64,000 nt of DNA, from the NCBI RefSeq assembly GCF_001676875.1, contig NZ_JYKA01000003.1, positions 1 through 64,000 on the forward strand, written 5' to 3'. Below, in pieces: positions 72 through 31,985 of the stretch. Origin of the DNA: Chromobacterium subtsugae (GTDB lineage Bacteria; Pseudomonadota; Gammaproteobacteria; Burkholderiales; Chromobacteriaceae). Position numbers and translations under genes: made by a program. Under the pieces are notes generated by a model. The model worked only from the letters and a program-made list of their open reading frames with translations, was not told the DNA's origin and did not search any database. Each line of letters starts with the position of its first letter. The stretch's first letter is position 1.

Positions 72-187
72 ATCTGGTGACAATAGCGAGGTGGTCCCAC
101 GCCTTCCCATACCGAACAGGACCGTGAAACGCCTTAGCGCCGATGATAGTGTGGCATTCGCCATGTGAAAGTAGGACATCGCCAGAT
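72..187 (+). rRNA. rrf: 5S ribosomal RNA
   Basis: The sequence contains the conserved bacterial 5S core: GGTCCCAC, CCCAT, CCGAAC, GTGAAA, GCCGATGATAGTGTGG and GTGAAAGTAGG. The two ends pair (TCTGG with CCAGA) to form the terminal helix. The length of about 115 bases is normal. It is followed at once by a strong intrinsic terminator, so this is the last gene of an rrn operon whose 16S and 23S genes lie outside the window. The exact ends may be off by one or two bases. Confidence 0.96.
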
Positions 188-14524: not shown

Positions 14525-15631
14525 CTAGCTCCAGTGCGCGCCGGTGATGTCGCGCAGCAAGGCCACCACGCGCGGGCGGCTGGGGTGGTAGCCGATGAAC
14601 ACCAGCTGCGCCTGGCGTGGCGCGGCCAGCGCCTCGTCGCGGCTCAGTTCGATGCGCTTGCGCACGCCTTGGGCCAGCAGCCGGCCGGGGCCGTCGGCGC
14701 AGGCGGCGAAGCCCTTGATGCGCAGCAGCGGCTCCTCGCGGGCGATGGCCTCCAGCGCCGCGGCCAGCTTGTCGGCATGCTGCGGCTCCTTGCTGCGTAT
14801 CATGAACGATTGCCAGCCTGGGTCCTGCTCGTGGAAATGCTTGTGGGTGGACAGGCCGTGGCTGTGCGCGGCCTGGCCGCCGTGGCTGTGGCCATCGAGC
14901 AAAGTTTGGTTGGCCAGCGGCCGCATCGCCAGCCCCGGCATGCTGGCCACCGGGCCGTAATGGCGGTGCGCGGCCGGCGCGGCCTCGTGCAGATGCAGGC
15001 CCAGCGTCAGCCGGGTGTCCAGCCTGGCTTGATAGGCCAGTTCGATGAAGCGGATCGACGGCGCCTGCCGGCGCACGGTTTCCTCCGCCGCCAGCAGTTC
15101 ATCTGCGGACAGCGCGTCTATCTTGTTCAGCACCACGATGTCGGCGTGGCCCAGCTGCTGGTCGAACAGTTCCGCCACCGCGTCGGCCTCGCCGCCGTTG
15201 CCGGCCGGGGAGAAGTGGCCGGCCAGCAGCAGCGGGGTGTCGACCACCGCCAGCGTCGCGTCCAGCACGAAATAGGGCGCCAGCGCCTCGCTTTGCAGCT
15301 GCGCCATCACCGCGCTGGGCAGCGCGAGGCCGGAGGTTTCGATCAGCACGTGGTCGATCTGCTGGCGGCGCTGCCACAGCGCCAGCATGGTGGGCAGGAA
15401 GTCGGCGTCGTCGTCGTAGGCGACCAGGCCATTGGCGAGGTCGTGGATTTCCACGCCGCCGGCGTCGGCGTCGCGCAGCAGCCCGCCGTCTATCGACACC
15501 TCGCCGAACTCGTTGACGAGTATCGCCAGCCGGCGTTGCTTGTTGTTTTCCAGCAGCTTGGACAGCAGCGTGGTCTTGCCGGCGCCGAGGAAACCGGTCA
15601 GCACGGTGACGGGAAGGCGCGGCGCGCTCAT
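14525..15631 (-). CDS. cobW: CobW-type GTPase/metallochaperone
   Basis: A G3E-family P-loop GTPase thought to deliver cobalt during B12 synthesis. The 368-residue protein has Walker A TGFLGAGKTTLLSKLL, the switch region LVNEFGEVSIDG, and the base-recognition motif NKID. The usual CxCC metal site of COG0523 proteins is not obvious near residue 65; instead an Asp/Gly-containing stretch is present. A histidine-rich stretch (HSHGGQAAHSHG and HKHFH) around residue 250 could bind metal. The start at 15631 overlaps the cobJK stop by four bases, although the frame is open much further upstream. Confidence 0.92.
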   Translation of the reverse strand: MSAPRLPVTVLTGFLGAGKTTLLSKLLENNKQRRLAILVNEFGEVSIDGGLLRDADAGGVEIHDLANGLVAYDDDADFLPTMLALWQRRQQIDHVLIETSGLALPSAVMAQLQSEALAPYFVLDATLAVVDTPLLLAGHFSPAGNGGEADAVAELFDQQLGHADIVVLNKIDALSADELLAAEETVRRQAPSIRFIELAYQARLDTRLTLGLHLHEAAPAAHRHYGPVASMPGLAMRPLANQTLLDGHSHGGQAAHSHGLSTHKHFHEQDPGWQSFMIRSKEPQHADKLAAALEAIAREEPLLRIKGFAACADGPGRLLAQGVRKRIELSRDEALAAPRQAQLVFIGYHPSRPRVVALLRDITGAHWS

Positions 15632-17172
15632 GCCTGGCCTCCCTGCGGCAGGACCGCCAGCACGGACTCGAAATCGTCGAAAGATTGCGGGTAGTCCAGT
15701 TGCGGCCGGTCGATGACGATGAACGGGATGCCCAGCGCCGCCGCGGCCGCGGCCTTGGCGTCGAAACCGCCGGCCTCGCCGCCGTCCTTGCTGATCACGC
15801 AGTCGATTCCCCAGTCGCGCCACAGCGCCTCGTTGGCGGCCTGCGAGAACGGGCCTTGCATCGCGCAGATGCGCGAACGCGGGAGTCCTAAGTCCAGCGC
15901 CCGCTGCAGGTGCTGCGGGTCCGGCGCCAGCCGCACGAACCATTGATGTTTGTGCTCCGCGTCGGCGGAGAGGAAGCGGTGCAGCTCCTTGCTGCCGGTG
16001 GCGAGAAATATGCGGTGTCCTTTCGCCATCGCCATTCTGGCGGCTGCATCGCTGTCGGCGCAGCGGATCACCGGATGCGCGCTGCCGCTGGCCGGCCGTT
16101 CGTAGCGCAGATAGGGCAGGGCCAGTTCCTCGGCCAGCGCCATCAGCTGCTGCGACATCTCGCTGGCGTAGGGGTGGGTGGCGTCGACGATGGCCGAAGC
16201 CCTGCTGCCGGACAGCAGCTCGCGGCGGCGCTCCACGCCCAGCCGGCCGCTGACGGTGGCGACGCCGGGCACGGCCTGCTGCGCTTGCTCGTTGCCGTAA
16301 TCGCTGGCGCTGCTGACCACCACCGCGCGGCCGGTTTCGGCGATGGCGCGCGACAGCGCGTTGCCGTCGCTGGTGCCGGAAAACACCCAGGCGGCGCCGG
16401 CGGGCAGCGCGTCGGCCTTCACCGTGTCGCTGGTGTTGTCCCAGTTGAAGTAGCCGCGCGGGGTGAACATCCAGTTGCGCTTGCGGCGGGTGAAGCGGTT
16501 GCCGATGACGATGCTGGTCAGCATGTCGAAGCGGCGGGTGCGCAGCTCGGCCAGGGTGACGATTTCCACCGCCTGGTCTTCGCGGTAGGCGTTGCGGACG
16601 ATGCCGCACAATGTCTCAGGCTTTTTGTGCTCCAGCATGATGTCCAGGATGCGGTAGACGCCCTCCTGGCGCTGGCGGCTTTGCACGTTGTAGAACACCA
16701 CCGCCAGGTCTGCCTGGGCGATGTGGCGGGCGCGGGTTTCGATCCACTCCCACGGGCACAGCAGGTCGGACAGGCTCAGCGTGGCGAAGTCGTGCGACAG
16801 CGGCGCGCCGAGCAGCGACGCGCAGGAGTTGGCCGAGGTGATGCCGGGGATCAGCTGCACGTCGAAGCTATCGTCCTCGCGCATGTCTTCGTAGGCCAGC
16901 GTGGCCATCGCGTAGACGCCGATGTCGCCGCTGGACAGCAAGGCCACGGTCTTGCCGGCGCGGGCTTCGTCCAGGGCCAGCTGCGCGCGTTCGCGCTCCT
17001 GGGTCAGCGGCAGCGTGCGGATGTCCTTGCCGGCGATCCATGGTTGCACCCAGGTCAGGTAGAGGTCGTAGGAGACGATCACGTCGCTCGCGGCCAGCGC
17101 CTGGCGGGCAAGGTCGGGGATCAGTTCGGCGCGGCCGGGGCCGACCGAGACGAGGTAGAGTTTGCCGGTCAT
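15628..17172 (-). CDS. cobJK: Fused precorrin-3B C17-methyltransferase / precorrin-6A reductase (CobJ-CobK)
   Basis: A 514-residue fusion of two corrin-ring enzymes. Residues about 1-245 are CobJ/CbiH, the SAM-dependent methyltransferase that contracts the ring (opening VSVGPGRAELI, GDIGVYAMA, PGITSANSCASLLGAPLSHDF). Residues about 255-510 are CobK/CbiJ, the NADPH-dependent reductase (FSGTSDGNALS, VDATHPYASEMS, ISKDGGEAGGFDAK). The linker is the GYFNWD region. No extra iron-sulfur cysteine cluster like that of CbiH60 is seen. It is the first gene of the cobJK-to-bluB block. Its upstream region holds the paired repeats but no riboswitch. Confidence 0.93.
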   Translation of the reverse strand: MTGKLYLVSVGPGRAELIPDLARQALAASDVIVSYDLYLTWVQPWIAGKDIRTLPLTQERERAQLALDEARAGKTVALLSSGDIGVYAMATLAYEDMREDDSFDVQLIPGITSANSCASLLGAPLSHDFATLSLSDLLCPWEWIETRARHIAQADLAVVFYNVQSRQRQEGVYRILDIMLEHKKPETLCGIVRNAYREDQAVEIVTLAELRTRRFDMLTSIVIGNRFTRRKRNWMFTPRGYFNWDNTSDTVKADALPAGAAWVFSGTSDGNALSRAIAETGRAVVVSSASDYGNEQAQQAVPGVATVSGRLGVERRRELLSGSRASAIVDATHPYASEMSQQLMALAEELALPYLRYERPASGSAHPVIRCADSDAAARMAMAKGHRIFLATGSKELHRFLSADAEHKHQWFVRLAPDPQHLQRALDLGLPRSRICAMQGPFSQAANEALWRDWGIDCVISKDGGEAGGFDAKAAAAAALGIPFIVIDRPQLDYPQSFDDFESVLAVLPQGGQA

Positions 17173-17245
17173 GGATGTGTTCTCTTAATTTTGCATTCTG
17201 TAATTGTTTTGGCGCTGTTGATGTGTGGTTCCGCCCGGTGGGCGG

Positions 17246-17404
17246 GTAAGGGGGCTGCGCGGCCAGCGCCCTTACAACCCCAGGCCGCCCCTGCGTCGCG
17301 CGAATTTCCGGCAAACATCAGGCTGGCAAGGCGCTGCCGAACTCGCCGCGCGCTAGCGTCGCACGGCTCAAACAAGCGGCAGCTTAAAACCTTGCCAGCC
17401 TGAT
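17246..17404 (+). repeat. Structured intergenic repeat, copy A
   Basis: Copy A has two stem-loops. The first (17246-17275) pairs GTAAGGGGGCT with AGCGCCCTTAC around GCGCGGCC. The second (17317-17404) has a perfect 15-bp outer stem ATCAGGCTGGCAAGG / CCTTGCCAGCCTGAT, an inner CTGCC/GGCAG stem and an apical GCCGCGCG/CGCACGGC stem around CTAGCGT. Copy B has the same layout in the opposite orientation, with base changes that keep pairing. Confidence 0.85.
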
Positions 17405-17604
17405 TTTTACCGGCGCGCGCCAAAGGGGAGTGGGGGTGCGCCACCGACATTTCATCCTTTGCTAGGATTGCTACCGTTGCATTTATTTGTGACGCATGAA
17501 TAGATAAGCGCTGGGTTTGCCCATGTGGACTGCGCCATTGATAACCTTCTGGTTGCGCAAAACATTGACGATACGCCGAGTCGTCCCCTTCGGGACGCGC
17601 CGGG

Positions 17605-17771
17605 AAAAACGCGGTCGGCAAGGTTTTAAGCCGCCGTCTGTTTGAGCCGCGCGACGCTAGCGCGCGGCGACGTTCGGCGGTGCCTTGCCGACCGCGTTTT
17701 TCCTGGGGGTTCGCGGCACGTAGGGGCGGCCTGGGGGCTGCAAGGGGGGCTGGCCGCGCAGCCCCCCTTGC
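17605..17771 (-). repeat. Structured intergenic repeat, copy B (inverted relative to A)
   Basis: On the minus strand copy B reads like copy A. The first stem-loop is a perfect 12-bp GCAAGGGGGGCT / AGCCCCCCTTGC around GCGCGGCC. The second has a perfect 19-bp stem AAAAACGCGGTCGGCAAGG / CCTTGCCGACCGCGTTTTT, an inner CCGCC/GGCGG stem and the same apical GCCGCGCG CTAGCGT CGCGCGGC. The shared unpaired bases include GGCTCAAAC and TTAAAACC. Confidence 0.85.
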
Positions 17772-17799
17772 CCCTGGCGGTGGAACTGCCCCTAAATGA

Positions 17800-17816
17800 T
17801 GCCTGCAAAGCAGGCA
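17800..17816 (-). terminator. Small hairpin after cbiG, possible weak terminator
   Basis: TGCCTGC / GCAGGCA form a 7-bp stem with a 3-base AAA loop (TTT on the minus strand), 18 bases after the cbiG stop. There is no proper T-run after it, so read-through into the repeats and cobJK is possible. Confidence 0.3.
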
Positions 17817-17833
17817 CAGCTTGTTTTTTGAAC

Positions 17834-18580
17834 TCAAACAATTGGCCCATCCTCCACTACCGCCACCGTCACCCCATCCAATGCCATCTTGGGCACGATC
17901 AACCTCCCCCGCGGGCTGGCGATCAGCGCGCACGGCTCGCACACGCCGTCGACGCCGACGTTCCGCCGAACCCAGTCCGACGGCGCGCCGGTCCAGCCGC
18001 GGGCGGCGACGTCTTCGCGGGCGATGACGCGCAGCGGCAGCGCGTGGTGGGCGCAGAATGCCAACAAGCCGGCTTCGTCGGCCTTCAGGTCTATGGTCGC
18101 CACTTCGCGCACGTCGGACAGCGGCCGGCCGGCCAAGGCTTGCGATACCGCTTGTTCGATGGCTTCGGCGCTTTTGCCGCGGCGGCAGCCGATGCCCAGC
18201 GTCAGCGGCTTGATCGCTTCTGTCGCGGTGGTGACGGCCGGGATGGCGCCGGTCAGCCGCGCCGCTTCGTAGGCAAGGTCATTCGCTCCGCCTTCGTGGC
18301 CGGACAATAGCGGGATGGCGAAGCGGGCGGCTTCGTCCATCACCACCACTGCCGGGTCGCTGTATTTGCTTTGCGGCAGGCCATCCAGATAGCGGACGGC
18401 GATGCCGCTGGCCATCACCAGCACCCAGTGGCTGTGCAGGTGGAAGGCGGCGCGAAATTGCTCGCGGCCGCTGGCATCCGCATCCAGCCACGGCTGGTAT
18501 AGCTTGGCGTCTAGCGCCGATGCCAGCTTTTGGCCCAAGGGCAGCGCCTCGGCACGCACCAGCCACACGGCGCGGCTCAT
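17834..18580 (-). CDS. cbiG: Compact cobalt-precorrin-5A hydrolase (CbiG)
   Basis: CbiG opens the lactone ring and releases the two-carbon fragment during oxygen-independent ring contraction. The 248-residue protein has the N-terminal signature (MASGIAVRYL, KYSDPAVVVMDE, IPLLSGHEGGANDLA) and the C-terminal CobE-like domain (LTLGIGCRRGKSAEAIE, VPKMALDG). At 248 residues it is about 100 shorter than Salmonella CbiG (about 350), and the central domain seems missing. The ATG at 18580 overlaps the cobM stop by four bases. It is the last gene of the riboswitch-led operon. Confidence 0.9.
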   Translation of the reverse strand: MSRAVWLVRAEALPLGQKLASALDAKLYQPWLDADASGREQFRAAFHLHSHWVLVMASGIAVRYLDGLPQSKYSDPAVVVMDEAARFAIPLLSGHEGGANDLAYEAARLTGAIPAVTTATEAIKPLTLGIGCRRGKSAEAIEQAVSQALAGRPLSDVREVATIDLKADEAGLLAFCAHHALPLRVIAREDVAARGWTGAPSDWVRRNVGVDGVCEPCALIASPRGRLIVPKMALDGVTVAVVEDGPIV

Positions 18581-19380
18581 GCCTGGTTTTCTTTCCGCAG
18601 GCTGGCCCGCTTGGTCTTGCGTTCGTCGCCGTCGCGGAAGATGTGGGTGAAGCCGGCCGCGTACAGGCTGGATTCGACGCCGCCTTCGCGCGACAGCGCC
18701 TCGCCCACCAACAGCAGCGTGGTCAGCAGCCAGTCTTTCTGCTTCACCTCGGACAGCATCTTGCCCAGCGTGGAGCGGTGGACGGATTGGTCCGGCCAGC
18801 TGGCGCGGCGCACCAGCGCCACCGGGGTGCTGGGCGGGTAGTGCAGCGACAGGTCGGCGACGGTCTGTTTCAGCCGCTGGCCGGATAGGAAGATGCACAT
18901 CGTCGCGCGGTGGGCGGCGAAGCTGGCGATGGACTCGGTCTCCGGCACCGCGCTGGCGCGGCCGCTGGTGCGGGTGAGGATGATGGATTGCGACACCTCG
19001 GGCCGGGTCAATTCGCTGCCCAATGCGGCGGCGGCGGCGGTGAACGAGGACACGCCGGGGACGACCTCATATTTGATGCCCAGCGCTTCCAGCCGGCACA
19101 TCTGTTCGTTGGTGGCACCGTAGATGGCCGGGTCGCCGGAGTGCAGCCGCGCCACGTCTTTGTCCTCGGCTTGGGCGCGGCGGTACAGCGCTTCCTGCTG
19201 GTCCAGGTTCAGCTCGGCGGTGTCGTGGATTTCGGCGTCCGGGCGGCAGTGGCTCAGCATCTCGGCCGGCACCAGCGAGCCGGCGTACAGCACCATGGGC
19301 ACCGCGCCCAGCAGGCGGCTGCCGCGCAGCGTGATCAGGTCGGCGGCGCCGGGGCCGGCGCCGATGAAATACACTTTCAT
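18577..19380 (-). CDS. cobM: Precorrin-4 C11-methyltransferase (CobM/CbiF)
   Basis: SAM-dependent methyltransferase of the corrin pathway. The 267-residue protein has FIGAGPGAADLITLRG at the start, LYAGSLVPAEML, HSGDPAIYGATNEQM and VPGVSSFTAAAAALGSELT, all diagnostic of CobM/CbiF. The start at 19380 overlaps the cobI stop (ATGA). The frame remains open upstream only as a shadow of cobI. Confidence 0.95.
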   Translation of the reverse strand: MKVYFIGAGPGAADLITLRGSRLLGAVPMVLYAGSLVPAEMLSHCRPDAEIHDTAELNLDQQEALYRRAQAEDKDVARLHSGDPAIYGATNEQMCRLEALGIKYEVVPGVSSFTAAAAALGSELTRPEVSQSIILTRTSGRASAVPETESIASFAAHRATMCIFLSGQRLKQTVADLSLHYPPSTPVALVRRASWPDQSVHRSTLGKMLSEVKQKDWLLTTLLLVGEALSREGGVESSLYAAGFTHIFRDGDERKTKRASLRKENQA

Positions 19381-31702: not shown

Positions 31703-31785
31703 ATCCTTCCGTCTTCTTATCCATGAGCGGAGCTTGTGCGTATCCCCCGGTACACCCCGCCCGGTTTCTGCTTGCGTCGACACGT

Positions 31786-31945
31786 ATGACGGCCGGTCTC
31801 CTGGCTCGCGCGTCGCCGTCCGGGCGCCGCCTTCCCGACCTTGCTAAGGGCCAGTGGCGTCAGGCGTGGACTCTGCGCTTACAGTTGCGGGGGCAGCCGC
31901 GGTTTTTCACCGCGTTCCCGTTTCACCCTCTAGGGGCACCGTCAT
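31786..31945 (-). promoter_or_regulatory. Cobalamin (B12) riboswitch
   Basis: Read on the minus strand the element has all main cobalamin-riboswitch blocks in order: GGTGCC, GGGAAC..GGTGAAAAACC, GCTGCCCCCGCAACTGTAA, GCCACTG, GGGAAGGC and the B12 box AGCCAGGAGACCGGCC at 31806-31791. Its ends pair to form P1 (ATGACGG with CCGTCAT). It starts about five bases after the predicted transcription start and precedes nicT by 124 bases. It should shut down the 11-gene operon when adenosylcobalamin is plentiful. Confidence 0.95.
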
Positions 31946-31956
31946 GATGGAATCGG

Positions 31957-31985
31957 ATGATACGTGACAAAAACCGGGCTGTGAA
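31957..31985 (-). promoter_or_regulatory. Predicted sigma-70 promoter of the riboswitch-led B12 operon
   Basis: On the minus strand a -35 box TTCACA (31985-31980) and a -10 box TATCAT (31962-31957) are separated by exactly 17 bases. Each matches consensus at five of six positions. The predicted start point near 31950 lies at the 5' edge of the riboswitch. The promoter fits in the 55-base gap after the upstream cobC gene. Confidence 0.7.

Follow-up and report, generated by a model that had tools for sequence, protein, structure and literature searches.

Copies A and B at the locus

The window analysed here, a stretch of 64,000 nucleotides, is part of contig C23 of a genome of 4.8 Mb in 76 contigs. 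Two copies of a structured repeat, designated A and B, lie in it between two open reading frames (ORFs) that read in the same direction, at 17834-18898 (-) and 15628-17172 (-), for which an earlier note on this DNA had offered the putative names cbiG and cobJK. Copy A is on the forward strand and copy B on the reverse, so that they form an inverted, head-on pair (Table 1). The stem pairs and the conserved unpaired bases named in that note are all present in the sequence (inverted repeats I1, I2, I4, I5 and I7), and its coordinates fell somewhat short of the extent indicated by the modelled long hairpins. In the third stem of copy A, one pair is broken (GCCGCGCG against CGCACGGC). When compared with 200 dinucleotide shuffles each, the folds of A and B had z-scores of -4.7 and -6.8, respectively, and none of the 200 shuffles equalled the fold in either case. 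Elsewhere in the window, Rfam models matched a cobalamin riboswitch at 31774-31958 (-), with 129 bits, and a 5S rRNA at 73-187 (+).

Table 1. Positions of the two repeat copies and of their parts within the window
Feature	Positions	Strand	Basis
Copy A, whole: h2, h3, long hairpin, 3' tail; no h1 recognised	about 17216-17460	+	Model match 17287-17429, 144.1 bits; ends by comparison with other copies
Copy A, h2 (CCGCCC/GGGCGG)	17231-17245	+	Read from sequence
Copy A, h3 (GTAAGGGGGCTGCGCGGCCAGCGCCCTTAC)	17246-17275	+	Sequence and fold
Copy A, long hairpin	17308-17413	+	Inverted repeat I4, fold, consensus structure
Copy A, long hairpin, outer arms	17308-17331/17390-17413	+	As long hairpin
Copy A, long hairpin, stem 2	17333-17339/17377-17383	+	As long hairpin
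Copy A, long hairpin, stem 3	17345-17352/17360-17367	+	As long hairpin
Copy A, loop CTAGCGT	17353-17359	+	As long hairpin
Spacer, 154 nt, separating the modelled cores of the head-on pair	17430-17583		Model matches and pair-gap count
Copy B, whole: h1, h2, h3, long hairpin, 3' tail	about 17550-17818	-	Model match 17584-17727, 135.7 bits; ends by comparison
Copy B, long hairpin	17591-17715; outer arms about 17591-17623/17683-17715	-	Inverted repeat I3, fold
Copy B, h3	17740-17771	-	Inverted repeat I7
Copy B, h2	17776-17792	-	Read from sequence
Copy B, h1 (TGCCTGC..GCAGGCA)	17800-17816	-	Read from sequence

A dispersed repeat family

With copy A as the BLAST query, 20 places were found in the genome. 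A covariance model was then built from 14 copies and used at a cut-off of E at or below 1e-5; this recovered 24 copies in the same genome, A and B among them; a further six of the 30 rows were discounted, four as reverse-strand shadows and two as weak partial matches. The earlier note had regarded a genome search returning these two copies alone, with stem changes no better than chance, as grounds for dropping its proposal, and the model returned 24. Among the relatives, 24 of 41 genomes were carriers by the same model, namely 18 of 19 in the genus (own genome included), 4 of 6 in the rest of the family and 2 of 16 in the rest of the order; the one genome of the genus in which the model search found no copy was G010. 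An exact 25-letter pattern retrieved 82 stretches from the species collection, the titles of which named Chromobacterium, Aquitalea, Pseudogulbenkiania, Craterilacuibacter, Crenobacter, Chitinibacter, Deefgea, a Neisseriaceae bacterium, one 'Xenophilus' and one Rheinheimera MAG. The title of the last is the only one clearly outside Neisseriales, and its copy (L145 7365-7508, 90 bits) represents either transfer or contamination. A plasmid or phage passenger was considered and rejected, as one copy, when queried, had no match in either collection; a single viral contig holds the pattern.

The earlier note knew of no named family for these sequences. In Rfam release 15, the repeat reached no family's gathering score, the best sub-threshold rows within it being microRNA models; no paper naming the family was found in open-licence full texts, and the word 'Chromobacterium' is absent from the main text of PMC3733652, PMC6006769 and PMC2267715. 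Overall, the repeat is real, widespread, and without a name in the libraries and papers searched.

Anatomy of the repeat

A full copy is about 265 bases long and consists of three hairpins on the 5' side (h1, h2 and h3), one long interrupted hairpin, and a short 3' tail. The h1 motif, found in 54 of 67 copies, comes in the variants GTCCGC..GCGGAC, ATCCGC..GCGGAT or CCTGC..GCAGG, while h3 is represented by several unrelated sequences, each of which forms a hairpin. One h3 type, the hairpin TTTCTTTTGCTTCGCCAAAAGAAA followed by AAAGAAAAGGCGACCC, occurs in many copies, other genera included (L075, L078, L079, L051); a literature search on its letters found no paper. In the long hairpin, variable outer arms, usually ending with CAAGG/CCTTG, are followed in turn by the kept TTAAAA bulge, stem 2, the kept GAACTC and CTCAAAC, stem 3, and a loop that reads CTAGCGT or CTAACGT. 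On its 3' side, kept CGGC and GGGG are followed by the weakly kept tail GCGTCGGTTCGG. The loops and bulges are kept across genera. In a loop of some copies there is, in addition, a nested mini-hairpin of about 30 bases (GTGCGAATC..GATTCGCTC), which was seen at two different positions of the repeat (L006, L013, L018, L020 and others); at the C23 280-kb site, described below, it is present in G000 and G014 and absent from G006. Of the marks of a MITE moved by a DDE transposase, no terminal inverted repeats were recognised by eye, and the site junctions are too diverged for target duplications, or exact ends, to be read.

Arrangement and orientation of the copies

The family is often found as a head-on (3'-to-3') pair of unlike copies. 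The own genome has four such pairs, their partners 117-213 nt apart, against an expectation of 0.06 close pairs of whatever kind. Among the loci examined, which comprise 146 copies and were partly picked for pairs, there are 37 cases of neighbours no more than 600 nt apart, of which 23 are head-on, 9 direct and 5 back-to-back; 20 of the 23 head-on pairs are spaced 71-213 nt. In seven genomes (101 of 102 rows, one shadow having been dropped), the pairs within 3 kb were 10 head-on, 10 direct and 1 back-to-back, and 8 pairs lay within 700 bp, against an expectation of 0.22. The median identity of pair partners is 0.64, that of all copies 0.62, and that of the own genome 0.69; a fresh inverted duplication was rejected as the source of the pairs, since the partners are no more alike than other copies.

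No replication-strand bias was detected among the 101 rows of the seven genomes (56 versus 45, p = 0.32), with the replication strand set from dnaA. Lagging-strand insertion is unsupported because this bias is absent, and the idea was set aside. Similarly, the neighbouring ORFs, taken mechanically as the longest ones, showed no orientation bias (++42, +-30, --28, -+25). This result does not favour the transcription barrier that was among the options of the earlier note, and for the same reason a terminator or other 3' element was set aside.

Gain and loss at shared sites

The earlier note had proposed to look for empty sites in related genomes. The flank of the A/B site is kept in 11 genomes, which were read by eye and with the model, fragments being left uncounted. 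Two copies are found in G000 (head-on) and G017 (back-to-back), and one in G008, G015, G009, G006 and G014; in G012, the two ends of a pair are fused inside h3. No copy is seen in G004, G005 and G007, although an h1-like hairpin remains in G005. At C45, a short gap between two ORFs was aligned in 11 genomes; the surrounding genes (L246, G000) look like those of a type III export apparatus. This gap holds a copy in G000 and G016 and only h1 and the 3' tail in G015. Eight of the 11 genomes are without a copy, the ORFs there being directly adjacent or having other sequence between them. Nine genomes were aligned at the C23 280-kb site; six have a copy in one orientation, G012 has another on the opposite strand (by eye), and G008 and G017 have no copy. 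Presence and absence at shared sites thus bear out that the repeat is gained and lost between species, and the site differences could partly be losses.

Covariation of the stems

The matched stem differences between A and B had been taken in the earlier note to mean that the folded form is selected. As regards a structured repeat with genuine covariation, the family alignment agrees: in 147 aligned copies (146 distinct rows), fitted to the model and related to one another, so that the counts are not independent, 35 of the 38 pairs are altered on both sides, pairing holds in 91.1% of the cells, versus 67.7% in shuffles, and 1186 cells are doubly changed, versus 352. None of 500 shuffles attained any of five covariation measures, and slid structures gave paired cells of 48.6% at most.

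The kind of mismatch in the stems was examined in 60 copies that are less than 85% alike. Their 34 well-formed pairs contained 1811 Watson-Crick, 39 G-U, 75 A-C and 77 other cells. RNase P RNA from the relatives (30 sequences used of 41 found), counted alike in 19 non-redundant rows, served as the control and contained 1494 Watson-Crick, 74 G-U, 10 A-C and 28 other cells. With G-U to A-C counts of 39:75 in the repeat and 74:10 in RNase P RNA, G-U is not favoured over A-C in the repeat stems, unlike in RNase P RNA. The A-C excess has p = 0.001 if the cells are treated as independent; it could be a weak G-U preference on the opposite strand, which would leave room for an opposite-strand RNA. Overall, the changing stems stay complementary without a G-U excess.

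Exchange of hairpins as blocks

In G008, G017 and G015, a counterpart of copy A occupies the corresponding position, with 95-96% identity over the 523 flanking bases. The outer arms and tail of copy A nearly match those of the counterparts; its inner hairpin differs from theirs in several pairs, both arms having changed together, and, save for one base, is identical to the inner hairpin found at this position in G009 and G006. Because hairpin exchange or template switching gives such changes as a block, the complementary changes in copy A need no selection on each pair. At the C23 280-kb site, one outer stem is found in G000, G014 and G006 and a wholly different one in G015, G016 and G009, each of them complementary, for which separate insertion is an alternative to exchange. 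Finally, 154 copies were screened by motif for inverted interiors; of the 92 that could be classified, four were flagged, three of which proved on reading to be false alarms. The remaining, real case (L077 1501-1635, in G011) has its inner hairpin reversed relative to the flanking modules. These block changes and L077 point to exchange among copies, and to template switching or arm-to-arm recombination.

Both findings, i.e., that G-U is not favoured and that blocks are exchanged, a process that arises without selection on each pair, weaken the argument that leads from covariation to a selected RNA or fold; as worded, the claim that covariation means selection of the folded form is not supported. 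Nonetheless, the loops and bulges are kept, and selection on the fold may therefore still operate. Given their conservation across genera, it is likely that the fold is under some selection or is bound by a protein.

RAYT genes, REPs and other neighbours

A search of the genus for RAYT genes (E 1e-8) gave 29 rows in 14 of 19 genomes, which reduce to 27 loci once the halves of two broken genes are joined; two of the RAYTs were checked by profile (NF047646, PF01797). Within 1.5 kb of 13 of the 27 loci there is a repeat copy, one of the 13 being weak and degraded, where about 0.02 per locus would be expected from 24 copies in 4.8 Mb. At six loci of one RAYT clade, the copy is located 115-116 nt upstream and in the same orientation, although some of the six are perhaps one ancestral site, as G009 and G016 have a neighbouring ORF in common. 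These RAYT genes are flanked by GTAG REPs of their own. Such REPs, located roughly, by regular expression, also abut repeat copies, on the 5' side in 16 of 75 (15 of these in one orientation) and on the 3' side in 18 of 75, against 4.3% expected per side. In the repeat itself the GTAG tag is not general; the tail often reads GCGTCG, and some copies end in CTAC. A GTAG tag on the opposite strand at the 3' end was rejected, as it is present in some copies only. No RAYT was found at E 1e-8 in the carrier genomes G001, G002, G005 and G017, and the 82 stretches of the species collection contained only three, all in Chromobacterium and none in stretches from outside the genus.

Other genes also recur near the copies. 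An anti-phage dCTP deaminase gene was found at three loci (L106, L330, L066), profile-tested in G008 and G015, where it is beside or between copies, and assigned by BLAST cluster in G006. A DrmA-like ORF gave a partial profile match, and BRO-N-like genes occur at six loci, two of them profile-tested and one above the Pfam cut-off. In a direct array of G017, both intervals contain one small ORF each. A DUF1484 gene was seen near copies in several genomes (L064, L118, L238, L329, L331), mostly reading away from the 5' end of the copy, and the layout of the BRO-N-like genes mostly resembles that of the DUF1484 genes.

Interpretation

We consider it probable, at roughly 0.6, that A and B belong to a mobile, non-coding DNA repeat of Neisseriales that resides between genes, and that DNA folding, template switching and module exchange preserve the complementarity of its stems. 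The genomes display a dispersed family with presence and absence at shared sites, a modular anatomy, exchange of inner-hairpin blocks, clustering and head-on pairing; that the complementarity of the stems is upheld at the DNA level is what we infer. When made single-stranded during replication or repair, the strand would fold back on itself, and template switching between the arms, together with conversion between copies via short kept blocks (CAAGG, GAAC, TTAAAACC), would rewrite both arms together. More tentatively, the kept loops and bulges may be read by a single-strand-processing enzyme that moves the repeat in trans, the best candidate being one of the HUH/Y1 kind, such as RAYT. The repeats are also deleted across their hairpins, as was observed at two shared sites. 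In broad terms, the repeat is best read as one of the REP/MITE kind that is larger and more elaborate than REPs.

The RAYT loci near copies (13 of 27, six at a fixed 115-116 nt), the GTAG REPs that adjoin copies above 4.3% per side, and the head-on pairs, which recall REPINs, would all suit an outsized REP or REPIN, i.e., a RAYT substrate, of which the folded single strand is read, cut and moved by RAYT. This is unlikely in our judgment, as the RAYT genes have GTAG REPs of their own and the repeat is generally without the tag, four carrier genomes gave no RAYT at E 1e-8, the fetched stretches from outside the genus had none, the replication-strand bias is absent, and some of the fixed-spacing loci (G009, G016) may be one ancestral site. 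It is unlikely that the repeat represents a new class of folded-strand mobile element altogether, in which the kept loops would form a recognition code, the stems would drift while pairing, and a single-strand transposase would move the element in trans, with head-on pairs and direct arrays carrying or trading small accessory and anti-phage genes across a bacterial order.

A structured non-coding RNA or RNA regulatory element, spread by copying and selected for its RNA fold, would explain the strong covariation, the kept loops and the stable folds, and several copies, those of the A/B locus included, are inside apparent operons; on the opposite strand, moreover, the counts would become G-U 75 versus A-C 39. 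It is nevertheless quite improbable, given that the modelled strand has no G-U excess and that of the other strand is far below the one in RNase P RNA of the same relatives, that the neighbouring ORFs have no orientation bias and Rfam has no match, and that copies come and go at shared sites. Integron attC sites likewise have kept unpaired bases amid variable stems, and their R'/R'' boxes are GTTRRRY/RYYYAAC. A folded, attC-like recombination site that serves an as yet unrecognised system, its cassettes being small accessory genes, would fit the small or defence genes between or beside copies (dCTP deaminase, DrmA-like, BRO-N-like, DUF1484) and the direct array of G017 with its small ORF per interval. 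As read from the sequence, however, no R'/R'' boxes close the fold of the repeat, most copies lie outside direct arrays, many being solitary or head-on, and no identical gene was seen at two places with precise copy-to-copy junctions, all of which renders a cassette site highly improbable.

If the reading as a mobile DNA repeat is right, copying at the DNA level can produce, within a repeat family, the covariation that is frequently accepted as proving a functional RNA. The repeat would then serve as a natural test bed in which to study the way long DNA hairpins preserve their pairing as their sequence changes. A cheap discriminator of DNA copying versus RNA is the G-U:A-C cell ratio, controlled by a known RNA from the same genomes. 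In addition, the repeats flag sites at which genes, RAYTs and defence genes are gained and lost.

Comparison with known systems

By the features tested, namely length, anatomy, tag and boxes, the repeat is neither a classic REP nor an attC site, the two known families with which, in the earlier note, clear identity would have spoken against its proposal. ERIC, bcr1 and BOX are structured multi-copy bacterial repeats. The present family shares with them an intergenic location, foldability and multiple copies, when compared by description with the excerpted text of PMC2267715.

GTAG REPs, BIMEs and REPINs with RAYT, as portrayed in portions of PMC3733652 and PMC6006769, are likewise dispersed, intergenic and palindromic, often form opposed pairs of unlike copies, and occur near RAYT genes. 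They differ in that a GTAG/CGTC REP is a palindrome of 20-40 bp at the foot of which an unpaired GTAG or CGTC tag is located, whereas the repeat, at about 265 bp and with four hairpins, differs in length and anatomy and has no general foot tag of either kind; in addition, its stems differ wholesale between copies, and its copies are far fewer (24 here). TIRtrons are tyrosine transposases flanked by long inverted repeats, of which the TIR families are moderately abundant, according to part of PMC3733652. Compared by description with that part, both involve long, partly self-complementary repeats by RAYT-like genes that occur singly, in pairs or in groups, but the repeats described here are mostly on one side of the RAYT gene and in the same orientation, and it is GTAG REPs that frame those genes.

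Lastly, template-switch evolution of hairpins, in the passages of PMC8794818 that deal with it, predicts multi-base compensatory changes without a G-U step, and the compensatory block changes found here fit this; the process was described there for RNA genes, whereas here it would act on a dispersed DNA repeat.
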